This document shows positions 43,228 to 58,498 of a stretch of 64,000 bases of DNA, in pieces. This stretch comes from Spartobacteria bacterium. GTDB taxonomy: Bacteria; Verrucomicrobiota; Verrucomicrobiia; Chthoniobacterales; UBA10450. The stretch lies in NCBI GenBank assembly GCA_003167365.1, contig PMTM01000006.1, positions 578,391 to 642,390 of the forward strand, in the 5' to 3' direction. How positions within the stretch are numbered: the stretch's first letter is position 1; every line of letters starts with the position of its first letter. Below the pieces are notes generated by a model that was given only the letters and a program-made list of their open reading frames with translations, did not search any database and was not told the DNA's origin. Position numbers and translations under genes: made by a program.

Positions 43228-44646
43228 ATGGTGTATGATCAGTCGGTTTCACCCCGAAATATGCGTTCTCTCAATTCACAAGCTGTTTTCGCGAGTTTGT
43301 TCGCCCTGGCGGTGGTCGTCGGGGTCACCGGCATTGCGCCTGATCCGTCCGCGCGCAGCTCCTTCTCAGCGGATGAATTTGTGCAGGCGATGGACGCGCA
43401 TCGCGCGTCGGTCATCGATCTTTATATCAACGAGCATCGCGACCCTAATGCTCGCGCTTCGCACGACCGTCCGCTAATTTTGGCGGCCGCCCTGGAGCAG
43501 GATTGGCAGACGGTCCAACGACTTCTCGCGGCCGGCGCGAGTGTCGATCTTGGGGACGAAACGGGATTGAAACCGCTTATGGCCGCGGCCATGTACGGTA
43601 ATACCGATATCATCAACCAATTCATCCCGCTGGTGACAAACATTTCCGCGAGTGATCGAACGGGACGCACCGCACTTCATTATGCCGTGGCGGCTGGAAA
43701 GGCGGCCGCAGTAGAAATTCTTCTGCCGCTGGTGCAAGACATTGGAAAACCGTGTGCCGACGGCTCCGATCTTTTTGGAATGGCACTGGAGACCGGCAAT
43801 TCGAAAATCGTCGAGTCCATTTTGCGGCGCATGCCGCCACAGCAACAATGGACGGCCGGTGCGCGCCGCGCATTCGAAGCAGCCCTGGCGAGCGGCAACA
43901 AGGATCAGATGCGATTATTGCTGAGCAAGCATGCTTCCCCGCCGACTCCGGACGGCCGAAGCGTGCCGCTCCTGGCTTACGCCATCGCATCCAACGACCT
44001 GTCTCTCTTCAATATGCTTCTTTCCTGTGGCGCGGACCCCAACACGGTTCTGCCGGACAAGTGCGACAAGGAATTCCTGGCCTCGCTTCCGTCGAAGTCT
44101 CTCCAGAATTACATTCCTGGAGATAAGGGCGTGACGGTTCTCATGCTGGCTGCGGGGATCGGTCAGCCCGACTATGTCCGCGCGCTTCTTGATGCCGGCG
44201 CGGACCGGAATCGCGCCACCAAACGTTACAAGATGCTCGCCCTTTATCTTTCCGCGCAGAATGATCAATGGCGTTGCACCCAACTTCTTCTCGGGAGCGG
44301 ACCGTCACCAGACAAGCTGCACATCGAAATTTCTCTTTCTTCGCAGCACGTCGCGGTCGTTAAGGACGGAGTACCGATATTCAACACCATCTGTTCGACT
44401 GGAAGACAAGGCTATTCCACCCGAGCCGGGTCCTATGTCATTACTGACAAAGATCGCAGCCATCGTTCCACTATCTATAAAGTGGAGATGCCTTACTTCA
44501 TGCGTCTCAGTTGCCTCGATTTTGGAATGCACGAAGGCGTCGTCCCGAACTATCCCGCATCCCACGGCTGCATCCGGCTGCCCTCCGAAGCGGCTCGCAA
44601 ACTATTCGCGGAAATTCCGGTCGGCACGCTCGTGACCGTGCAGTAG
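43228..44646 (+). CDS. Ankyrin repeat protein fused to an L,D-transpeptidase domain
   Basis: 472 aa. A signal-like helix (AVFASLFALAVVVGVTGIA) is near the N-terminus. Residues about 70-350 hold six or more ankyrin repeats (DETGLKPLMAAAMYG, DRTGRTALHYAVAAG, GVTVLMLAAGIGQ), and the last 110 residues form a YkuD domain with HEGVVPNYPASHGCIRLP, in which the cysteine is the nucleophile. The ankyrins should be periplasmic, since the signal peptide exports the protein. I do not recall this architecture as a described family. Ankyrins may bind a partner and guide cross-linking. Confidence 0.85.
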   Translation: MVYDQSVSPRNMRSLNSQAVFASLFALAVVVGVTGIAPDPSARSSFSADEFVQAMDAHRASVIDLYINEHRDPNARASHDRPLILAAALEQDWQTVQRLLAAGASVDLGDETGLKPLMAAAMYGNTDIINQFIPLVTNISASDRTGRTALHYAVAAGKAAAVEILLPLVQDIGKPCADGSDLFGMALETGNSKIVESILRRMPPQQQWTAGARRAFEAALASGNKDQMRLLLSKHASPPTPDGRSVPLLAYAIASNDLSLFNMLLSCGADPNTVLPDKCDKEFLASLPSKSLQNYIPGDKGVTVLMLAAGIGQPDYVRALLDAGADRNRATKRYKMLALYLSAQNDQWRCTQLLLGSGPSPDKLHIEISLSSQHVAVVKDGVPIFNTICSTGRQGYSTRAGSYVITDKDRSHRSTIYKVEMPYFMRLSCLDFGMHEGVVPNYPASHGCIRLPSEAARKLFAEIPVGTLVTVQ

Positions 44647-46657: not shown

Positions 46658-47383
46658 ATGGCGAACTTTTTCCCGCGCTGGACTAATTGGCTGCCGCTCA
46701 AAGTCGCTATTTGTGGCGTCTTTATCGTGTGCGGATTGACCGCCGCGACTTGGTACTATGGGACGCCGAAATATACACGCGTCGGTTATCAACCGATTCA
46801 GCCGGTGCCATTCCCGCACGACATCCATGTGTCGCAACTCGGGATGGATTGCCGTTATTGCCATAGTTTTGTCGATGTGGCGGCGCATTCGAATCTGCCC
46901 AACACCCAGACTTGCATGAATTGTCATACGCAGGTGCAGAAGGACAATCCGAAGCTGGAGCCGGTGCGGGCGAGTTGGAAAACGGGCAAACCGATCGAGT
47001 GGGTGCAGGTGCACCGCACCCCAGACTACGTGTTTTACAATCACTCAGCCCATGTGAATCGCGGGATCAGTTGTTTCAGTTGCCACGGCGAAATCAATCA
47101 CATGCCGGTGGTTTATCACGCCAAGCCGCACAGCATGGCGTGGTGCTTGGAATGCCATCGGCATCCGGAGAATTTCCTTCGCCCCGACGATCAGGTTTTC
47201 AATCTCGATTGGAAACCGGACGACGTGAAGCCGGCCGAGTTTGTCGCCAAGTACGGGCAACCGCAAAATGTGAGCGAAGATTTTTCGAAAAAGAAAAAGC
47301 TTACCCAAACCGAGATCGGACAAACCTTGAAAGAGCGCTGGAATATTAAGCCGCCGATTAACTGTCAGGGGTGCCACCGATGA
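46658..47383 (+). CDS. actA: Alternative complex III subunit A, pentaheme cytochrome c
   Basis: 241 aa. One N-terminal membrane helix (about residues 14-33), then five CXXCH heme sites at 65-69, 86-90, 139-143, 163-167 and 236-240, the last being the C-terminus. The arrangement matches ActA of quinol:electron acceptor oxidoreductases. It carries electrons from the quinol site towards cytochrome c on the periplasmic side. It overlaps actB by ATGA. The 274 bases before it hold no clear promoter or gene. Confidence 0.93.
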   Translation: MANFFPRWTNWLPLKVAICGVFIVCGLTAATWYYGTPKYTRVGYQPIQPVPFPHDIHVSQLGMDCRYCHSFVDVAAHSNLPNTQTCMNCHTQVQKDNPKLEPVRASWKTGKPIEWVQVHRTPDYVFYNHSAHVNRGISCFSCHGEINHMPVVYHAKPHSMAWCLECHRHPENFLRPDDQVFNLDWKPDDVKPAEFVAKYGQPQNVSEDFSKKKKLTQTEIGQTLKERWNIKPPINCQGCHR

Positions 47384-50300
47384 AACGCGTTTTCCAACAT
47401 CCACCGGAGTCGCTCACCGGAAAGAAATACTGGCGCAGTCTCGGCGAGCTGAGCGATACGCCGGAGTTTCGCGATTGGCTGGAGCGCGAATTTCCAGCCG
47501 GCGCCTCCGAGTTAAATGGCGACGAATGGTCGCGCCGCGGCTTTTTGAAATTGATGGGGGCGTCGATGGCGCTGGCCGGTTTCGGATTGAGCAGCTGCCG
47601 CCGTCCGGAAATGCATCTCGTTCCGTTTACCAAGAGCGCGGAGTGGACCATTCCAGGCAAACCGCTTTTTTACGCGACGGCAATGCCGCGCCGCACGGGC
47701 GCGATTCCGCTCGTCGTTACGACCCATGACGGCCGGCCAACCAAGATCGACGGCAACCCTCTGCATCCGGCGAGCGGCGGCGCCACCGATGCCTTCGCCC
47801 AGGCTTCCATTCTCGATCTTTACGATCCGGCGCGATCGAAAGATTTCCGGGAGAACGGAAAAATTTCCGATCGAGCGGCGTTTGAGAAGTATCTCGACAA
47901 GGTGCGGCCACACTGGATGGCCGACCAGGGTGGCGGGGTCGCGTTTTTGGTCGAACCCGGTTTTTCGCCGACAAGAGACCGCTTGCGCAACGAACTTCAA
48001 AAAACTTTCCCGCGCATCCATTGGTGTGAATACGATCCGCTGCTGAGCAGCGCGCAGAGTTTCGCCACGCAAATCGGTTTTGGCGAACAATTGCGCGTGA
48101 TCCCGCACATCGAACGAGCCGACGTGATTCTCGCGCTGGACAGCGACTTTCTCGATTGCGGGCAGGGAGACTTGGAATCCGTCCGAGCTTTCAGTGCGCG
48201 TCGCAGAGTCAAGGCATCGAAGGACACGATGAATCGTCTGTATGTCGTGGAAAATCGCTTCAGTCAGACTGGGGCGATGGCGGACCATCGGCTCCGCATT
48301 CCGGCATCCCAAATTCCTTCGTTTACTCGTGCGCTTGCAGAAAAAATGGTGGCGGCAACAAGAGACGGCGCGCTCGGATCCGTGGTCGGCACACTTCCGG
48401 CGCAGACGAATGCGACGAAATTCGACGAGCAATGGCTAACGGAAGTCGTAAACGATTTGGTCGCGAAATCGGGCGCGAGTCTCGTGCTCGCCGGTCCGGA
48501 TCAGCCTGTGGTTGTGCAATTGCTCGTCTACGCGATGAATGTCGCGCTCAAGAATCTTGGTCACACGCTCGTTGTCCGCGAATTTCCAAGCGACCGGCGG
48601 ACCAATAGCATTCTTCAACTCGCTTCGGATATCGCGGCCGGCCGGATCGAACACCTCTTCATTCTTGGAGGCGATCCGGTTTACAACGCTCCGCGCGCGC
48701 TGACGCCGGACCGCGTAACAAGTCAGCTTCTCGATTGGGCCGATTTGCAAAAGAAGGTCGCAAACGTCATTCGCGTCGGTTACTACGAAGACGCGACCTC
48801 GGCGTTGAGCAAATGGCACGTCCCGGCGGCGCATTTCCTCGAATCGTGGGGCGACGCGATGACTGAGCGGAGCGGCTACCTTGCGATCCAGCCTATGATC
48901 CTGCCGCTTTTCGGTGGCCTGTCGGACATCGAAGTGATGAACAGCGTTTTGGGAGGACCGAAATCCGAAGGTCCCGAGTTAGTGCAGGAAACGTTTCGTT
49001 CCACCAATCCGCCGGGTGACTTTGCCACGGCCTGGTCGCTGTTTTTGCGCGACGGCTTTGCCGCCCACGTCACGGCAAATGAAAAATCGCCGGCGTTCAA
49101 TCCAAATGCCGCCGCGAGTGTAGCGCGTAATCTTTGGACTTCCGTCGCGGCTCCGAGTCTCAAGTCACCAGAAATCGTCCTCGTTCCAAGTTATGCGATG
49201 GACAATGGGCGCTACATTAATAATGGCTGGCTCCAGGAGCTTCCCGATCCAATCACCAAGCTCACTTGGGACAACGCCGCGCAAATGAGTCCGGTGTTTG
49301 CGCGTCATCTCGAAGTGGAAACGGGCGATCTTATCCGCATCGCCGTGACCGATCAGCGAACATTCCAGAATAAACCGATCGTGCGCGAACTCGTGATCGC
49401 TGCTTTTGTGCAACCGGGTCACGCCGATAATTCAATCACCATTCCGCTCGGTTATGGACGCACGCATACCGGTCCAGTAGGCGAGGAATCGGGCTTCAAT
49501 GGTTATCTGCTGCGCACGCCTTCAAATCCGCATTACATCCTCGAAGACGGTCAGGCTGTCGCAAGCGTGAAGGTGACGAAGGTCGGGCAAAAATATCCGC
49601 TCTCGATTACGCAAGACCATTGGAGCATCGAAGGCCGCGGCCTTGTGCGCGAAGCTACCCTCGAACGTTATCGCGAAGACAACGAATTCGTGAAGAAACT
49701 CGAAGGCGAAGAAGTGTCGCGACCGATGCCTTCGCTCTACAGCCATCCGCCACTTGAGGCGGAACAGCAGTGGGGCATGGCGGTCGATCTTAACGTGTGC
49801 ACCGGCTGCAGCGCGTGCGTCGTCGCCTGCCAAAGTGAAAACAATATCCCGATCGTCGGTAAATTGCAGGTCAGTCATGGCCGCGCGATGCATTGGATTC
49901 GCATCGACCGCTATTACGCGAGTCACAAAGAGTTCAATCAAGACAATGGCGATTGGCCGGAAGATCCCGAAATCGTGCATGAGCCGATGATGTGTCAGCA
50001 TTGCGAGAACGCACCCTGCGAAACCGTTTGTCCGGTCAACGCCACCGTTCATAGCGAAGACGGCCTCAACGTCATGGCCTACAACCGCTGCGTCGGCACT
50101 CGTTATTGCGCGAACAACTGTCCGTTCAAAGTGCGCCGCTTCAATTTCTTCGATTACAACCAGCGGCCGGTCGGCAAGAAGAAGATCGCCGGCCAATTCA
50201 GCATCTATAAAGAATACTTCGCGCCGCTTACGACCAAAGGCGCGCCGGACACAGTCAAGTTGCAAAAGAACCCGAACGTCACCGTGCGAATGCGCGGCGT

Positions 50301-50679
50301 GATGGAGAAGTGCACGTTCTGCGTCCAACGCATCGAGGAAGCGAAGATCGCGGCGCACGTGCGCGCCGGCGCGTCGAACAACACTCGCATTCCGCGCGAT
50401 TCGTTCACGACCGCGTGTGCGCAAGCTTGCCCGACCGAAGCGATTGTCTTTGGCGACATCAAAGATCCGGAAAGCCGCGTCTCGAAGATGAAACAACAGG
50501 ATCGAAACTATCGGCTGCTCAATTATTTGAACGTGAATACGCGGACGAGTTATCTCGCGCGCATTCGCAATCCGAATCCGAAAATGCCGGACGCGGCGAA
50601 AATCGGTGTAGCCAGCATTCTCAAAGAAGGGCATTCCTCGAAGAACGGCGAGACGAAGCATACGGAGGAAGGCGAGTGA
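47380..50679 (+). CDS. actB: Alternative complex III subunit B, molybdopterin-like and iron-sulfur fusion
   Basis: 1099 aa from the ATG at 47380. A twin-arginine signal (SRRGFLKLMGASMALAG near residue 49) makes it a Tat substrate. The first 750 residues resemble the molybdopterin enzyme fold without a cofactor. The second part has ferredoxin-like cysteine clusters: CTGCSACVVAC, CQHCENAPCETVCP, CANNCP with CVGTRYC, and CTFC with CAQACP. Together they can hold three [4Fe-4S] and one [3Fe-4S] clusters (family knowledge). It passes electrons between ActC and the cytochromes. Confidence 0.95.
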   Translation: MKRVFQHPPESLTGKKYWRSLGELSDTPEFRDWLEREFPAGASELNGDEWSRRGFLKLMGASMALAGFGLSSCRRPEMHLVPFTKSAEWTIPGKPLFYATAMPRRTGAIPLVVTTHDGRPTKIDGNPLHPASGGATDAFAQASILDLYDPARSKDFRENGKISDRAAFEKYLDKVRPHWMADQGGGVAFLVEPGFSPTRDRLRNELQKTFPRIHWCEYDPLLSSAQSFATQIGFGEQLRVIPHIERADVILALDSDFLDCGQGDLESVRAFSARRRVKASKDTMNRLYVVENRFSQTGAMADHRLRIPASQIPSFTRALAEKMVAATRDGALGSVVGTLPAQTNATKFDEQWLTEVVNDLVAKSGASLVLAGPDQPVVVQLLVYAMNVALKNLGHTLVVREFPSDRRTNSILQLASDIAAGRIEHLFILGGDPVYNAPRALTPDRVTSQLLDWADLQKKVANVIRVGYYEDATSALSKWHVPAAHFLESWGDAMTERSGYLAIQPMILPLFGGLSDIEVMNSVLGGPKSEGPELVQETFRSTNPPGDFATAWSLFLRDGFAAHVTANEKSPAFNPNAAASVARNLWTSVAAPSLKSPEIVLVPSYAMDNGRYINNGWLQELPDPITKLTWDNAAQMSPVFARHLEVETGDLIRIAVTDQRTFQNKPIVRELVIAAFVQPGHADNSITIPLGYGRTHTGPVGEESGFNGYLLRTPSNPHYILEDGQAVASVKVTKVGQKYPLSITQDHWSIEGRGLVREATLERYREDNEFVKKLEGEEVSRPMPSLYSHPPLEAEQQWGMAVDLNVCTGCSACVVACQSENNIPIVGKLQVSHGRAMHWIRIDRYYASHKEFNQDNGDWPEDPEIVHEPMMCQHCENAPCETVCPVNATVHSEDGLNVMAYNRCVGTRYCANNCPFKVRRFNFFDYNQRPVGKKKIAGQFSIYKEYFAPLTTKGAPDTVKLQKNPNVTVRMRGVMEKCTFCVQRIEEAKIAAHVRAGASNNTRIPRDSFTTACAQACPTEAIVFGDIKDPESRVSKMKQQDRNYRLLNYLNVNTRTSYLARIRNPNPKMPDAAKIGVASILKEGHSSKNGETKHTEEGE

Positions 50680-50741
50680 AAACAGCTCCGAACAATTTCG
50701 CGAGCCCCAAGTATTTCGGGGTTGTCGATCTTGCATAAACC

Positions 50742-52180
<1,439 letters not shown>

Positions 52181-52184
<4 letters not shown>

Positions 52185-52735
52185 GGACGCCGTCCGGTCA
52201 CACGGTTTACGCGATGGCGGCCGAATATGAGAGCGCGACCGCGCTCTACGAAGCGGCTAAGCGTGTGCGCGACGCCGGTTTCAAACGCTGGGATGTTTAT
52301 TCGCCATTTCCAATCCACGGAATGGATCAGGCGATGGGCTTGGGCAAATCGTGGCTCAGTGCCGTGGTGCTTTGCGGCGGCATTACCGGTTTGCTAACCG
52401 CAGCGGTTTTGGAGTTCGGACCGTCGTGGTTCATCTATCCGGTGATCGTTCACGGAAAACCTTTCGACTGGCGAACTGTCCCCGCTTTTTTCCCGATCAT
52501 GTTTGAGCTCACCGTGCTCTTCTCCGCTTTCGCCGCGTTCTTTGCCGTGCTCATCATGAATGGGTTGCCGCGCTGGAATCATCCGATCTTCAATTGGGAT
52601 CGGTTCAGTCGCGCGACCAACGACGGTTTCTTTCTCGCCATCGAAGCGCGCGATCCGCGGTTCACTGAAATCGAAGCGCGCGAGCTGCTCGAAAGCACGG
52701 GCGGCCAGCACATCACCATCGTGCACGAGGATTGA
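52181..52735 (+). CDS. actD: Alternative complex III subunit D
   Basis: 184 aa from the ATG at 52181, which overlaps the actC stop. The frame is open upstream but that is actC in another frame. The soluble N-terminus ([32 protein letters not shown]) is followed by two membrane helices (about 60-82 and 100-122). DUF3341 is the family name of ActD. No cofactor site is seen; the role is structural in known complexes. Confidence 0.92.
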
Positions 52736-52737
52736 TT

Positions 52738-53427
52738 ATGTTGCGCGGCTTCCTCTTACTTTTCGTTTTGACCGGCGTTGCGCTTGTCGCCATTCTTGGA
52801 TTTCGCGGACAGAAGGGCAGCCAGCCGCCGTTCGAGCTTTTTCCCGACATGGTTCGTCAGGTCAAGGTGCGCGCGCAGGCGCCGCTCGGTTTTTTTGCAG
52901 ATGGACGCGGTCCGCGCCTGCCAGTCGCCGGCACCGTTCCGATCGGTTACGAAATGCCGAACCCGGAAAACACGCCCAGCGGCGCGCCGCCGGGAGAATC
53001 GCTTTCGCATCAGCGCGTCGCGTTCAGCGCCGGAACCGATTATTACAACACCGGAAAAATGGGCGATCGCTGGGGCACGGGTATTCCGATTGAAGTCACG
53101 CCCCAATTGATGGAGCGCGGTCGCGAGCGCTTCAATATCACGTGCGCGATGTGTCACGGCGCCACCGCGACAGGCAACGGCATCACCAAACAATACGGCC
53201 TCGCCACCGTCGTCACTTTGCAGGATGACCGCATTCGCAAAATGGCGGACGGCGAAATTTTTAACACGCTCACAAACGGCAAGAACACGATGATGGCTTA
53301 CGGACCCAACATCATGGTGGCGGATCGCTGGGCGATCATCGCGTATCTGCGCGCGCTGCAGCGGAGCCAGAACGCATCAATTAACGACGTGCCGGAAGAA
53401 CATCACGCGGAGATGGAAAAGAAATGA
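52738..53427 (+). CDS. actE: Alternative complex III subunit E, monoheme cytochrome c
   Basis: 229 aa. N-terminal helix or lipid anchor (LLLFVLTGVALVAILGF), a long loop, and one heme site CAMCH at 136-140. The downstream MMAYG pattern (near residue 190) is a likely Met ligand. In the family ActE is the exit cytochrome towards the oxidase. Start ATG at 52738, 2 bases after actD. It overlaps actF by ATGA. Confidence 0.92.
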   Translation: MLRGFLLLFVLTGVALVAILGFRGQKGSQPPFELFPDMVRQVKVRAQAPLGFFADGRGPRLPVAGTVPIGYEMPNPENTPSGAPPGESLSHQRVAFSAGTDYYNTGKMGDRWGTGIPIEVTPQLMERGRERFNITCAMCHGATATGNGITKQYGLATVVTLQDDRIRKMADGEIFNTLTNGKNTMMAYGPNIMVADRWAIIAYLRALQRSQNASINDVPEEHHAEMEKK

Positions 53428-54626
53428 GCGATCGTTCCCAGGCATTGCCGGCGCCGGAAGGCGAATTCGTGGAAACTTCGCGTTTCGGCGGATTATCGAT
53501 TTTGTTCGCGCTTCTTGCTTTGGTCGGCTTGGGGCTGGGCGTCGTCGGCGCAATGGTCGATCCGGCGCAGTTTAGTTTTTCCTGGCTTTTCGCTTTTGCT
53601 TTCTTCTTCACGCTCTGCGCCGGCTGCTTCTTCTGGACGCTTGTTCATCACGCCACCGACGCGGACTGGAGCGTGGTGGTACGACGCCAACTCGAAAACA
53701 TTGCTTCACTCCTCGCGGTCATGGCTGTCTTTCTGGTGCCGGTGTTGTTGCTTCGTCATCATCTCTACGGGTGGATGAATATTCCGCCCGGGCACGAGGA
53801 GGCGCTCGATGTCAAACGTCCTTACCTCAACTGGCATTTCTTCCTCACGCGCGCGATCGTCTTTTTCGCCTTCTTCATTATCGCGACGCAATTGCTCCGG
53901 CGGTTCTCGGTCCGGCAGGACAAGGACGGCAATCCGCGATTCACGTTTTGGATGCGCAAACTTTCTTTTATCAGTCTGCCCATGTTCGCGCTTTGCCTGA
54001 CTTTTGGCGCCTGCGACTGGTTGATGAGCCTCAATTACCACTGGTTCTCCACCATGTGGGGCGTTTATATTTTCGCCGGCACCGCCGGATCTTCCATGTC
54101 GCTGCTCGTCCTTGTCATCACGGCGTTGCGCAACGCCGGCTACCTGCAAGACGTAGTTACGGTGGAGCATTACCACGTCATGGGAAAATGGATGCTCACT
54201 TTCACTGTTTTCTGGGCCTATATCGGCTTCAGCCAATACATGCTCATCTGGTATGCGAACATGCCGGAGGAGACGCAATACTTCCTCGTTCGAAATACCG
54301 AGTCGTGGTGGGCCCTGAGCATGCTTTTGGTGGTCGGACGGTTCTTTGGTCCCTTCGCGATTCTACTTATGCAGGGGTTCAAGAAACGGCCGCGCCGTTT
54401 GTGTCTGCTCGCGGCCTGGATCCTTTGCATGCAGCTGCTCGATATGTACGTCATCGTGGTGCCCGCATTGCACGGAACGGGCGTGCACGTGAGCATTTGG
54501 GATTTTGTTCCGCTTCTCGGCATGGGCGCGACGCTCGCCTTTGTTTATTTGCGCCTCCTTGGCCGGACATCGGTTTTTCCGGTGCGTGATCCGCGTGTGA
54601 TCGAATCAATCAATTACCAGAACTGA
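53424..54626 (+). CDS. actF: Alternative complex III subunit F, second quinol subunit
   Basis: 400 aa with about ten membrane helices, NrfD-related but shorter than ActC. FCTLCAG-like text (FTLCAGCFFW) lies near the second helix, and HHATDADWSVVVRRQLENI is conserved after it. RPYLNWHFFLTRAIVFF and FGACDWLMSLNYHWFSTMWG are typical of ActF. It is the membrane partner of ActC. It is followed after 1 base by a gene of unknown function that is not a classical act gene. Confidence 0.93.
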   Translation: MSDRSQALPAPEGEFVETSRFGGLSILFALLALVGLGLGVVGAMVDPAQFSFSWLFAFAFFFTLCAGCFFWTLVHHATDADWSVVVRRQLENIASLLAVMAVFLVPVLLLRHHLYGWMNIPPGHEEALDVKRPYLNWHFFLTRAIVFFAFFIIATQLLRRFSVRQDKDGNPRFTFWMRKLSFISLPMFALCLTFGACDWLMSLNYHWFSTMWGVYIFAGTAGSSMSLLVLVITALRNAGYLQDVVTVEHYHVMGKWMLTFTVFWAYIGFSQYMLIWYANMPEETQYFLVRNTESWWALSMLLVVGRFFGPFAILLMQGFKKRPRRLCLLAAWILCMQLLDMYVIVVPALHGTGVHVSIWDFVPLLGMGATLAFVYLRLLGRTSVFPVRDPRVIESINYQN

Positions 54627-54627
54627 T

Positions 54628-55257
54628 ATGGCCGATGCCGAATCTATTCGCCAAGCCGCGCACGTGCGCACGCCATTCTCCGCCTGGCTTGGCGTCGTTT
54701 TACTTTTCGCGCTTTTCGGCGTCATGGTGCTCGCGATTATCGGGCCGTCGCCGCGCGGCGACACTTACGAGAAGAAACGCGCCAAAGCGCGGGAAGAAAA
54801 ACTTAAGGCCGCGCGCGAAGACGACGCGAAGGCGCTCACCACATACAGCTGGATCGACAAGCAAAAAGACACCGTCCGAATTCCGATTCAGCGCGCAATG
54901 GAACTGGCTGTGACGGAACTCGCGCAGAAAAAACCCGCCCCGGCTGGTCCGATTGCGACGCCGGAGCCCCAAGCATCCGCTGTCGCAACTACTCCTTCAC
55001 CTGCGGCAACAGCGTCGCCATCGCCAACCGGCACACCAAAAGCAACTTCAGTTGCGGGACCAAGCTCGGAGAGTCGCAATCAACCAGCCGCGGCTGTTAA
55101 TCCGCCGCCTGCGCCTCCGGGAACACAACCGGGCGCATCGGCTTCACCTGCTGCGTCCCCGGCGCAAGCCGCGGCCGCGCAACCAAAATCAGCGCAGCAA
55201 ACGCCTGCGCCATCTCCGTCCGGAACTCCAACTCCCGCCGCCGGGAAAACGCCATGA
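54628..55257 (+). CDS. Membrane protein with Ala/Pro/Ser-rich tail, between ACIII and the CcoN-like gene
   Basis: 209 aa. One helix at about 18-38 (AWLGVVLLFALFGVMVLAII), a charged part, and the short conserved motif SWIDKQKDTVRIPIQRAMEL at about 72-91, followed by 110 residues almost only of Ala, Pro, Ser, Thr, Gln and Gly. The RIPIQRAMEL motif is shared by small membrane subunits near oxidase and SCO genes. It could be an assembly or linker subunit. The low-complexity tail is like those of the two cytochromes downstream. Its start is 1 base after actF. Confidence 0.7.
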   Translation: MADAESIRQAAHVRTPFSAWLGVVLLFALFGVMVLAIIGPSPRGDTYEKKRAKAREEKLKAAREDDAKALTTYSWIDKQKDTVRIPIQRAMELAVTELAQKKPAPAGPIATPEPQASAVATTPSPAATASPSPTGTPKATSVAGPSSESRNQPAAAVNPPPAPPGTQPGASASPAASPAQAAAAQPKSAQQTPAPSPSGTPTPAAGKTP

Positions 55258-55296: not shown

Positions 55297-56784
55297 ATGG
55301 ATGCCGCTGAGATACCGTTGAAAGCGCCACCGGTTCCGACCGATGTGCCGACGAGCGACACCGAGCAGATCGAGCGCGCTTTGATCGATGCATCGACGCG
55401 CGTGCCGGTGTTGATGTTTTACACCTCCGCGATCGTCTGGCTGCTGCTCGGCACGCTGCTCGCCATGCTTGTGTCGATCAAGTTGCATGCACCCGACATG
55501 TTTTCGGGAGTCAGTTTCCTCACTTGGGGCCGCGTGCGACCCGCGCACACCAACATCATGATTTACGGTTGGGCGTCGATGGCCGGTATGGGCACGGCAA
55601 TTTGGTTGATGGCGCGTTTGTGCCGCACCGTTCTGCGGCATCCGCTATTGATTATCACCGGCGCGGGCTTCTGGAACCTCGGCGTGCTTCTCGGCGTTGG
55701 CGCGATCCTTACTGGCGACAGCACCGGTTATCAGTGGCTCGAATTCCCGCCATACGTGGCGGTCATTCTTTTCGTTGCTTACACCATGATCATGTCGTGG
55801 GCGGTGTTGATGTTCCGTTTCCGGCGCGGCGACCGGATTTACATCACGCAGTGGTATTTGCTCGGCGCGTTCCTCTGGTTCCCGTGGCTTTACGCCGCCG
55901 CGCAACTGATGCTCTTCGTCGTGCCGGTGCAGGGCGTGATGCAGGCGGCGGTCAATTGGTGGTACGCAAACAATCTGCTCTTTCTCTGGTTCGGCGCGAT
56001 CGGGCTGGGCACAGCCTATTACATGATTCCGAAAGTGATCGGGCGCCCGGTCTACAGTTATCATTTGGCCACGATCGGCTTCTGGACCTACGCGCTTTTC
56101 TCCAGTTGGACCGGAATGCAGCGCATGATCGATGGACCGTTTCCCGCGTGGATGATCACCGCCAGCATCGCGGCGACGATTCTTACCATTATTCCCGTCG
56201 CCACCGTTGGGCTGAATCATCATATGACGATGAAGGGTTATTTCCCGCTCATGCGTTACAGTCCCACGCTTCGCTTCACGGTCTTCGGCGCGATTTCCTA
56301 CACCGTCTTCAGCTTAGTCGGCGTGATCATCTCGTTTCGCTCCGTTGCGCGTTATCTTAACTTCACACAGGCGAGCGTGGCATATTCGCATCTCGGCCTC
56401 TACGCGTTTTACACGATGGTGATTTTCGGATCGATGTACTACATCGTGCCGCGGCTGGTCGGTCGCGAATGGCGCTATGCTTCGCTTATCAAGCTGCACT
56501 TTTGGGCATCGGTTTACGGCGTTGGCTTGATGAGTTTGATGTTGCTCTCCGGTGCAATCGTGGAAGGAACGAATTTGAATGATGCGAGCATGGCCTTCAC
56601 CGAAAGCACGCAATCGATCCTGCCTTATCTGCGCGGCCGCAGCCTCGCCGGCGTGTTGATGACCGTCTCGCATTTTGTGTTCGCATTTCATTTCGGCCTC
56701 ATGCTCTTCGGATTGGGCCGCACCGCGAGTGTTCCAACATTCTTGAATCCCGTTGAATCGGAGGGCAGCGAAGCGCACTTATGA
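55297..56784 (+). CDS. CcoN-like heme protein lacking the oxygen-reducing centre
   Basis: 495 aa with about 12 helices, similar overall to cbb3 oxidase subunit I. The low-spin heme b ligands are present: H84 in RPAHTN and H365 in YSHLG. The rest of the active site is not. Aligned with canonical CcoN, the CuB His are N225 (WWYANN), Q275 and R276 (TGMQRM), the active-site Tyr is S269, and the heme b3 His is Y363. Distances between these positions equal those I remember for Pseudomonas CcoN (44, 6, 88 and 2), so the alignment is firm. It should bind one heme b only. It overlaps the next gene by ATGA. Confidence 0.9.
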   Translation: MDAAEIPLKAPPVPTDVPTSDTEQIERALIDASTRVPVLMFYTSAIVWLLLGTLLAMLVSIKLHAPDMFSGVSFLTWGRVRPAHTNIMIYGWASMAGMGTAIWLMARLCRTVLRHPLLIITGAGFWNLGVLLGVGAILTGDSTGYQWLEFPPYVAVILFVAYTMIMSWAVLMFRFRRGDRIYITQWYLLGAFLWFPWLYAAAQLMLFVVPVQGVMQAAVNWWYANNLLFLWFGAIGLGTAYYMIPKVIGRPVYSYHLATIGFWTYALFSSWTGMQRMIDGPFPAWMITASIAATILTIIPVATVGLNHHMTMKGYFPLMRYSPTLRFTVFGAISYTVFSLVGVIISFRSVARYLNFTQASVAYSHLGLYAFYTMVIFGSMYYIVPRLVGREWRYASLIKLHFWASVYGVGLMSLMLLSGAIVEGTNLNDASMAFTESTQSILPYLRGRSLAGVLMTVSHFVFAFHFGLMLFGLGRTASVPTFLNPVESEGSEAHL

Positions 56785-57731
56785 AAGCACTTCTCTCGCT
56801 CTTTCTCGGACTTTTCGGGACGTTCGCCTTTTCGTGGATAGGACTGACCGTCATTCCGAATTGGCAAATCGGACATCTCGATCCGCAAATGGACGAAGAA
56901 GGCACCGATATTTATCCCGAGCCGAAATCGGGAATGGCCGATCGCGGCCGGCACGTTTATACCGCGAACGGCTGCTTCTATTGCCACAGCCAGCAGGTCC
57001 GCCCTGATTACATCGCGTCCGATATCGATCGCAAATGGGGTGACCGTCGCAGCGCGCCGCGCGATTACATTTTCGCGCGACCGGTGTTGCTCGGCAAGGC
57101 TCGCATGGGTCCCGATCTTTCCAATATCGGCAAGCGTGCACCCGCCGAAGAAGAGAATGCTCCGCCGGCCGGCGCAAGCCCGGCGGCGTCGCCTGCGGCT
57201 AGCGCGAGTCCGGCAGGATCTCCCGCAACCGCGGCGTCTCCCGCTCCAGCCGGATCGCCGCAATCATCGCCGGCTGCAAAACCTGCTGCTGCGCCTGCTG
57301 CGAACGCGTCACCTGCTCAAAACGCGAGCCCCGCGGCGGGATCTGCAAGTCCGGCTCCGGCTGCGAATCCAGCCGGTTCACTCGATTCCGCGCCGGCAAA
57401 TGGCGAGCCGCCGACATACTCGGCCGCGTGGCACCACCAACATCTTTATTCGCCGCGCAGCCTCACGCTCGATTCAAACATGCCGGCCTATCGTTTCCTG
57501 TACGAAAAACGCCGTATCAGTGGCGAACGTTCCGCCGATGCCTTGAAACTCACGGGCAAAGAAGCGCCGAGTCAAGGTTGGGAAATCGTTCCGACTTACG
57601 ACGCGCAGTGTCTCGTCGCCTATTTAATGTCGCTTGATCAATCGCATCCTTTGAAAGAAGTGAAATCCGCGGCCCCGGCATCCGTGCCGGCGGCATCGAC
57701 TTCACCAGCTCCAGCCGCCCCGCCGAAATGA
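56781..57731 (+). CDS. CcoO-like membrane cytochrome c
   Basis: 316 aa. One N-terminal helix (LLSLFLGLFGTFAFSWIG), heme site CFYCH at 65-69 followed by SQQVRP, and the CcoO-like block FARPVLLGKARMGPDLSNIGKR. About 90 residues of Ala/Pro/Ser repeats (roughly 124-216) are inserted before the C-terminal part (WHHQHLYSPRS ... SNMPAYRFLY, the likely Met ligand). A second low-complexity tail closes the protein. It is translationally coupled to both neighbours. Its partner should be the CcoN-like protein. Confidence 0.88.
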   Translation: MKALLSLFLGLFGTFAFSWIGLTVIPNWQIGHLDPQMDEEGTDIYPEPKSGMADRGRHVYTANGCFYCHSQQVRPDYIASDIDRKWGDRRSAPRDYIFARPVLLGKARMGPDLSNIGKRAPAEEENAPPAGASPAASPAASASPAGSPATAASPAPAGSPQSSPAAKPAAAPAANASPAQNASPAAGSASPAPAANPAGSLDSAPANGEPPTYSAAWHHQHLYSPRSLTLDSNMPAYRFLYEKRRISGERSADALKLTGKEAPSQGWEIVPTYDAQCLVAYLMSLDQSHPLKEVKSAAPASVPAASTSPAPAAPPK

Positions 57732-58498
57732 ACGAGCAAACTCCAGATCCAGCATTGCGCATTCGCCAGGGAATGGATTACGGCGAGCACGGAGATGTGC
57801 AGGAGGTTCATGCCGCCATCCAGCGCGAAAAGCTCGAGCCGCGCGTCGGGCTCGAGCCGCTCTCGATGTGGTTGATCGTCGTTTACGGGCTCGCCGTTTT
57901 CTTTGGCGGCGCATATCTGGGACGCTATTCGGGAAACTTTAGCGGTGATGGACTTGATCCACTCGGCGGTCCGCCGCCTGCAAAAAAAGGAGCGAGCACG
58001 CAAGGTCCCGAACAACAAGCGGAGCTTTCGCCGCATGATCGCGGCAAGAAAGTTTTTAACGCGAACTGTGCGGTGTGTCATCAAGCCACGGGACTCGGCT
58101 CGCAAAGCCAGGGATATCCACCGCTCGCCGGTTCCGAATATACGAGCGGTGGCTCGCGTCGTAATGCCATGATCGTGATGAAAGGCTTGCAAGGCCCGCT
58201 TACGGTTAAAGGTCAAAAGTTCGGCAGCGCGGTCATGCAACCATGGGAAACTCTCGGCGATCAAAAAGTCGCCGATGTGCTTACTTATGTCCGCAGCGAG
58301 TGGGGAAACACCGGCGGTCCGATCACGCGTGAGCAAATCGCCGCGTTGCGAAAGGAACTTGCCAGCCATCCCGCTTCCTTCACCGAGCCTGATATCCAAG
58401 CGGTTCCGCCGGACGCGGAACTTCCGGGCGGCGAACAAGGCACCGCACCGCCAAAACCGGGCGAGCAAGCGAAACCCGGTGCGCCGCCCAAGAAATAA
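57728..58498 (+). CDS. CcoP-like monoheme cytochrome c
   Basis: 256 aa. The N-terminal part (GMDYGEHGDVQEVHAAIQREK) precedes a membrane helix (about 47-63). One heme site, CAVCH, lies at 114-118, and the cytochrome fold ends with VADVLTYVRSEWGN. Real CcoP has two hemes, so this one is simpler. The last 45 residues are Pro/Gly-rich. It closes the cluster; an interspersed repeat follows after 4 bases. Confidence 0.88.
   Translation: MNEQTPDPALRIRQGMDYGEHGDVQEVHAAIQREKLEPRVGLEPLSMWLIVVYGLAVFFGGAYLGRYSGNFSGDGLDPLGGPPPAKKGASTQGPEQQAELSPHDRGKKVFNANCAVCHQATGLGSQSQGYPPLAGSEYTSGGSRRNAMIVMKGLQGPLTVKGQKFGSAVMQPWETLGDQKVADVLTYVRSEWGNTGGPITREQIAALRKELASHPASFTEPDIQAVPPDAELPGGEQGTAPPKPGEQAKPGAPPKK

Follow-up and report, generated by a model that had tools for sequence, protein, structure and literature searches.

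A cbb3-like oxidase subunit I without its oxygen-reducing centre, encoded behind ACIII in Verrucomicrobiota, may act as a frame for two cytochromes

The CuB, heme b3 and tyrosine ligands lost from the protein described here are the very ones by which a heme-copper oxidase subunit I is usually identified, and the canonical CcoP partner of a cbb3 oxidase carries two heme motifs. In cytochrome bd, the CydB subunit is a cofactor-poor relative of the catalytic oxidase subunit that is kept as a structural partner. Gene arrays that join ACIII to an oxidase, including cbb3 in Verrucomicrobiota, are already well known. In Rhodothermus marinus (ACIII-caa3) and Flavobacterium johnsoniae (ACIII-aa3), the available excerpts describe ACIII as passing electrons directly to the oxidase with the help of an additional heme c (PMC5928083, PMC8552683): in F. 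johnsoniae a sixth heme on ActA may bridge to the oxidase, in R. marinus a heme c on the oxidase may do so (PMC8552683), and ActE of R. marinus lies close to the cytochrome domain of subunit II (PMC5928083). Excerpts of other reports place ACIII gene arrays with caa3 genes in Acidobacteriota (PMC8407424), call genes numbered next to actABCDEF in Verruconatronum caa3 (PMC13274419), and refer to Text S1 for the ACIII and oxidase genes of freshwater Verrucomicrobia (PMC5615132). In the excerpt on Methylacidiphilum kamchatkense, ACIII genes lie beside cbb3 genes and the cbb3 oxidase is treated as active (PMC6688271). Searches of an open-access library brought up no report of a cbb3 subunit I without active-site ligands behind ACIII.

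The window (the whole stretch of 64,000 nucleotides that was analysed) carries actABCDEF in order (46658-54626), an order kept in relatives, upstream of a CcoN-like gene and two cytochrome genes:

46658..47383, + strand: ActA, pentaheme cytochrome c of ACIII (Cytochrome_C7/c3 Pfam match; five CxxCH)
47371..50679, + strand: ActB, molybdopterin-like and Fe-S domains with a Tat-type N-terminus (Fer4 Pfam match; QrcB/QrcC-like, TIGR04519 NCBIfam)
50742..52184, + strand: ActC, NrfD-like membrane subunit (PF03916)
52169..52735, + strand: ActD (PF11821, E 1.1e-56)
52732..53427, + strand: ActE, monoheme cytochrome c (PF13442; one CxxCH)
53424..54626, + strand: ActF, second NrfD-like membrane subunit (operon place and membrane-type sequence; no Pfam match, hence named by position)
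54628..55257, + strand: 209-aa protein, apparently with a single transmembrane segment, tail rich in Ala and Pro (read from the sequence; no Pfam match)
55297..56784, + strand: CcoN-like pseudo-oxidase subunit I (PF00115, E 2.6e-57, above cut-off)
56781..57731, + strand: CcoO-like membrane-anchored monoheme cytochrome c (PF02433; heme motif about 56973-56987)
57728..58498, + strand: CcoP-like membrane-anchored monoheme cytochrome c (PF00034; heme motif about 58067-58081)

The 209-aa protein between actF and the CcoN-like gene is perhaps a counterpart of ActG. The CcoN-like frame is open over 495 codons (495 aa), and two 4-bp overlaps (ATGA), CcoN-like/CcoO-like and CcoO-like/CcoP-like, agree with the coupling to two cytochromes that a first, sequence-only reading of this DNA had described. 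Further upstream, at 43228-44646, ankyrin-like repeats and an L,D-transpeptidase-like C-terminal stretch were seen by eye.

The locus shares the Act gene set and a putative A-type oxidase partner with the R. marinus and F. johnsoniae supercomplexes as their excerpts describe them; unlike there, a dead cbb3 core with two cytochromes is encoded in between. With M. kamchatkense, compared by its excerpted description, it shares the phylum and the co-location of ACIII with genes called a cbb3 oxidase, but in that excerpt the oxidase is treated as active and its ligands are not mentioned (PMC6688271). The protein itself resembles solved cbb3 CcoN (PDB 3mk7, 9g6b, 6xkw, 8smr) in its fold, in the heme b ligands of the window copy and in its CcoO-like and CcoP-like partners downstream; it differs in having no CuB ligands, no active-site tyrosine and no heme b3 ligand, and its CcoP-like partner has one heme motif. 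We favour, with a probability of roughly 0.6, the reading that this pseudo-oxidase is a structural frame and its two cytochromes a link that takes electrons from ACIII to an aa3 oxidase. As proposed, it would be like CydB in being a relative of a catalytic subunit kept for structure, and unlike it in belonging to an unrelated family and in its history, the change in CydB being old and fixed and the loss here repeated within one class.

Among PDB sequences searched with phmmer, five matched at E 0.01 or better, all of them cbb3 subunit I chains; the best was 3mk7_A (9e-38). The aligned span to CcoN covers residues 38-465, contains no indels near the ligand sites and puts 7 sites on 7 canonical positions:

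55546..55548, + strand: H84, low-spin heme b ligand, kept (codon CAC; alignment to 3mk7_A)
55969..55971, + strand: N225 in place of the first CuB histidine, 3mk7_A H207 (AAC; N in 47/47 family rows)
56101..56103, + strand: S269 in place of the active-site tyrosine, 3mk7_A Y251 (TCC; S in 35 and A in 12 of 47 family rows)
56119..56124, + strand: Q275-R276 in place of the CuB His-His pair, 3mk7_A H257 and H258 (CAG, CGC; Q in 43/47, R in 47/47)
56383..56385, + strand: Y363 in place of the heme b3 histidine, 3mk7_A H345 (TAT; Y in 46 and W in 1 of 47)
56389..56391, + strand: H365, second heme b ligand, kept, 3mk7_A H347 (CAT)

All three CuB histidines are absent from the window protein (N225, Q275 and R276, by DNA reading and alignment) and both low-spin heme b histidines are present (H84, H365). 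The codons and the alignment to 3mk7_A bear out the substitutions and the two retained histidines named in the sequence-only reading; its spacings of 44, 6, 88 and 2 residues are correct, the alignment being gap-free near the sites, and its view that the loss of the O2-reducing centre is complete and selective holds. Since the CuB and heme b3 ligands are absent, O2 reduction would not be expected of this protein. No substitute for the missing ligands was found elsewhere in the fold among H308, H309 and H256. H309 is invariant and H308 nearly so across dead and intact rows, so that neither is a replacement ligand; H256 is the sole new conserved histidine of the family (41/47), but it lies 13 residues before position 269, which would place it about 20 Å away along the helix. 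A universal new positive charge at the old CuB place was likewise rejected: K or R often stands at 275/276 but is missing from several groups, and FEAADVQ-type rows have D or E at 276.

The fold agrees with an origin from an oxidase, as the sequence-only reading had it. An AlphaFold2 model built on 53 sequences (mean pLDDT 87.3, pTM 0.89) had cbb3 CcoN chains as its top 7 PDB matches in Foldseek, followed by ba3 oxidase and NO reductase, with TM scores against 3mk7_A of 0.86 by query and 0.91 by target. The modelled protein is a subunit I fold, closest to CcoN. The curated equivalog threshold of TIGR00780 (ccoN) is not reached (159 bits vs a cut-off of 583). Because the predicted model contains no cofactors, heme binding is judged solely from the ligands.

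Relatives are widespread. In a phylum sample of 387 genomes, 122 had a match at 1e-20 or better, and in the window's own family a match was present in 72/83 genomes and 13/14 genera, with no CcoN-like match found in the other 11 of the 83. For the named genomes, the best 80 of 427 relatives were taken, and these best 80 split into 62 dead and 18 intact copies at a sharp identity break, the dead ones at 70 percent and more and the intact ones at 55 percent and less; all 62 loci of at least 70 percent identity in this set were dead. The closest named relatives in the same best 80 of 427 include Candidatus Udaeobacter, Chthoniobacterales and Spartobacteria, and we infer that the close relatives form the Candidatus Udaeobacter group of Verrucomicrobiota. 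An excerpt describes Candidatus Udaeobacter copiosus as both ubiquitous and abundant in soils (PMC5615132). Across all 180 inspected rows distinct in their last 150 residues, 124 were dead and 56 intact, counts in which one species may recur through two assemblies and which leave out fragments under 380 aa (including L086), rows with identical C-terminal ends and many family and phylum matches, fused CcoN-like and low-scoring ones included. The sequence-only reading had presented a single protein; with 124 of the 180 distinct relatives inspected dead, the loss is instead a recurrent event in the class, and the dead form is a phenomenon much wider than the gene first noticed. One dead copy (L208, 2074-3552), with 78 percent identity to that of the window, sits on a 4.5-kb contig labelled Acidobacteriota, a label that is probably a binning error.

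By NG86, the dead window family showed a median dN/dS of 0.072 over 77 pairs (median dS 1.29, near saturation), the window against four relatives 0.072-0.095 and family members with a lost heme b ligand 0.082 (9 pairs); two other dead groups gave 0.24 (35 pairs) and 0.29 (15 pairs), and the intact set 0.18 (17 pairs). The low values are unlike the pattern of a functionless gene and point to strong purifying selection. That the gene is decaying, is a pseudogene or stems from an assembly error is the least probable of the readings weighed here: many relatives come from uncultured, fragmentary assemblies and the L086 copy lies in two pieces, but the frame is open, dN/dS is about 0.07 and the same state recurs in all close relatives inspected, so that the earlier argument against decay stands. 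Assembly error in particular is very unlikely, as tens of further assemblies show these very substitutions. Judged from sequence, the inactivity and the retention of the CcoN-like protein are both well supported.

Trees were built with the ligand columns removed. A 141-row tree contained four changes between intact and dead, and a careful 43-row tree, without several long-branch rows, contained three; long branches make finer loss counts unsafe. These trees indicate at least three separate losses of the O2-reducing centre. A tree with all dead rows in one clade was rejected (p-AU 5e-10), and with it a single loss for them all; so was a grouping of the window family with QQGRHQQ/AHTSRRW (p 0.009). 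A loss shared by the window family and the HSAQK/HHGQ group was not rejected (p-AU 0.28), the tested group pairs having been picked after inspection of the tree. Intact, partly eroded and ligand-free versions coexist in one class, which makes the order of loss and the roles of the parts directly testable.

The sequence-only reading had also seen a membrane heme b protein with a new role, such as electron relay, quinone contact or proton coupling, and here the relatives divide its claim. Retention of the heme b ligands is true of the window protein but is not general: it is confined to the close group, and not to all of that. Among close relatives from the best 80 of 427 with both columns readable, H84 and H365 are kept in 49/59; the 10 others have lost one or both ligands, with Q/Y in 3, Q/Q in 2, H/Y in 2 and Y/D, Q/E and A/H in 1 each at positions 84/365, and 3 more dead rows of that best 80 have a gap at position 84. 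Outside the window family, none of 60 dead rows keeps both heme b ligands. R81, a heme-side arginine, and N86 are changed in 4/6 family rows that lost a heme b ligand and in 0/41 with both, as if the heme pocket had dissolved as a unit in those rows. A working heme b protein, be it a relay, a quinone contact or an electron buffer through the retained low-spin heme, is therefore a reading with points on its side, namely H84 and H365 in the window and in 49 of the 59 close relatives from the best 80 of 427, and R81/N86 changes that track ligand loss and so suggest true binding of heme b in the remaining rows. We consider it unlikely as the main role: one or both ligands are absent from 10/59 of those close relatives and from 60/60 outside dead relatives, where the cytochromes are nonetheless kept, and electrons on heme b would have nowhere to go in the absence of the b3 and CuB ligands unless a new partner took them up. 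Since its ligands are lost elsewhere where the cytochromes persist, heme b does not account in general for the retention of the gene. The window protein probably does bind heme b, which in the window family is most likely a structural leftover or an electron buffer; the retention of both ligands in 49/59 (best 80 of 427) hints that heme b still matters there, which counts against a role as frame only.

The refilled pocket itself could have gained a function. One such proposal makes the protein a regulator or proton-coupling partner of ACIII, with N225, F229, R276, D279 and Y363 as a new charged membrane network that couples or gates the complex. R276 and D279 occur in 47/47 family rows, at positions where 34 intact rows have H and mostly G, but the network is absent from other dead groups (QQGRHQQ, AHTSRRW, FEAADVQ and others), one window-family row among the named loci (L213) has Q at 276, and position 258, which presumably corresponds to the serine lining the proton path in canonical cbb3, is alanine in 47/47 family rows; we hold this proposal to be unlikely, slightly more so than a working heme b. 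A second proposal, a new enzyme in which Y363 ligates a high-spin heme to form a catalase-, peroxidase- or gas-binding site, draws on the tyrosine at the b3-ligand place in 46/47 family rows and on the occurrence of tyrosine-ligated hemes elsewhere. It is very improbable, because the remaining family row has W, most other dead groups have F, Q, V, M, L, R or others there, and G229 to F with other bulky changes would tend to fill the pocket.

What the dead copies share is their surroundings. ActB-ActF lie upstream in 86/89 distinct dead rows with >7 kb upstream, and ActE-ActF directly upstream in the remaining 3. In the three related genomes with L109, L110 and L113, the search upstream of the dead module found no act genes but actE and actF, and the ACIII operon seems to be split there. 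Intact rows with enough upstream sequence are also behind ACIII in 24/31, the other 7 being 4 Pseudomonadota plasmid loci and 3 more distant copies; as the intact copies are mostly behind ACIII, an active form in that place looks ancestral. On the other side, 95/95 dead rows with >2.6 kb downstream have both partner genes, CcoO-like and CcoP-like, each with its CxxCH (homology-based counts). Axial methionines were read in columns computed on cytochrome genes chosen by their heme motif. The CcoP-like protein has its methionine wherever a row reaches the column, and the CcoO-like protein has its own in 34/34 family rows reaching it and 36/37 intact rows; in one dead group the CcoO-like residue is Cys in 15/21 rows (L102, L112, L115, L117, L119 and others), and in another it is H, K or R in 7/35. 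These replacements suggest altered redox behaviour, which counts against a bridge, and for Met to Cys a lower redox potential would be expected. ActA at dead loci has five hemes in 51/52 and three in one.

The frame reading would work as follows. A C-family subunit I without CuB and heme b3 ligands, kept under strong selection as a membrane frame, would hold the CcoO-like and CcoP-like monoheme cytochromes against ACIII; ACIII would oxidise quinol, ActA and ActE would pass the electrons on to the two cytochromes, and these would reduce CuA in a separate aa3 oxidase, one that lacks heme c on its subunit II. Ancestrally, the cbb3 module may have worked as an oxidase behind ACIII. After an A-type oxidase had become available, as it did within the same array in several lineages, the cbb3 centre would have turned redundant and been lost repeatedly, while the cytochromes and the frame stayed. 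The parts and the gene order suggest that the module assembles physically with ACIII and delivers electrons to aa3. The extra heme c on ActA or on the A-type subunit II is absent here, and two separate cytochromes are encoded instead; given five hemes on ActA and none on CoxB, the two cytochromes on the dead core would be a natural bridge. The wider proposal of a three-part assembly of ACIII, pseudo-cbb3 and aa3, with an oxidase turned into an inert frame several times independently in one class and some lineages left without any core heme ligand, we regard as evenly poised.

Candidate terminal oxidases are at hand. The window's genome has two further COX1 genes, its dead copy scoring weakly against COX1 (1.3e-57). 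One of the two lies about 48 kb downstream and was judged A-type by eye; coxC-, coxB- and ctaA/ctaB-like genes adjoin it, and its CoxB has the CuA motif and no heme c motif; the other looks B-type by eye, and its subunit II has one CxxCH. A second canonical CcoN as partner was not found in this genome, the other two COX1 looking A-type and B-type. In the class-wide COX1 search, a match of E 4e-125 or better, far stronger than the score of the dead copy, was present in 67/67 genomes with an inspected dead copy, a count made by hand that leaves out G393; two genomes with intact copies (G001, G143) had a single COX1 match each, assumed to be the CcoN copy. At dead loci, CoxA has all three ligand motifs in 37/39, the other 2 being cut by the end of the stretch, and among 28 complete CoxB the CuA motif is present in 28 and heme c in none. 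Same-strand A-type coxA genes follow downstream in 38/85 dead rows with >7.5 kb (27 of them within 3.5 kb of the CcoP end) and in 8/27 intact rows. Both oxidases share one array at 8/18 intact named loci (best 80 of 427), as would be expected of an intermediate. Against the bridge stand the 47 of those 85 dead rows without a coxA downstream and, in the window's genome, aa3 genes about 48 kb off and outside the operon.

On the quinol side, the window's genome has one ActD match, one cytochrome b match and no CydA match. Across 32 family genomes, ActD was found in 28, the cytochrome b family in 13 and CydA in 3; 16 of the 32, the window's genome not among them, had ActD and no cytochrome b match, so that ACIII is the only quinol:cytochrome c reductase found in those 16. 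With a cytochrome b homologue and a B-type-like oxidase whose subunit II carries heme c, the proposed electron route is not the sole possibility in the window's genome.

If true, the frame reading would mean that nature has more than once turned a catalytic respiratory core into a frame, and it would explain how a five-heme ACIII reaches an aa3 oxidase with no heme c on subunit II. The window protein is accepted by Pfam PF00115 above its cut-off, and surveys could therefore credit soil bacteria with a cbb3 oxidase that they may lack.

Intact relatives also occur in other settings. All 5 Pseudomonadota plasmid loci examined carry intact copies; two of them (L034 and L035, plasmids of Paraburkholderia aromaticivorans and Azoarcus sp. 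KH32C) have intact CcoN relatives with cytochrome genes, and no ACIII genes in the stretch examined around them. One family genome (G421; L079, 1773-3260) has intact CcoN-like and CcoO-like genes besides its dead copy, with ACIII genes not found in the 12 kb examined there. In two genomes (G407 contig 17 and G393 contig 209), a second ActD lies within about 5 kb of a high-scoring COX1, and such pairs in some family genomes are perhaps a second, classical ACIII-oxidase array.
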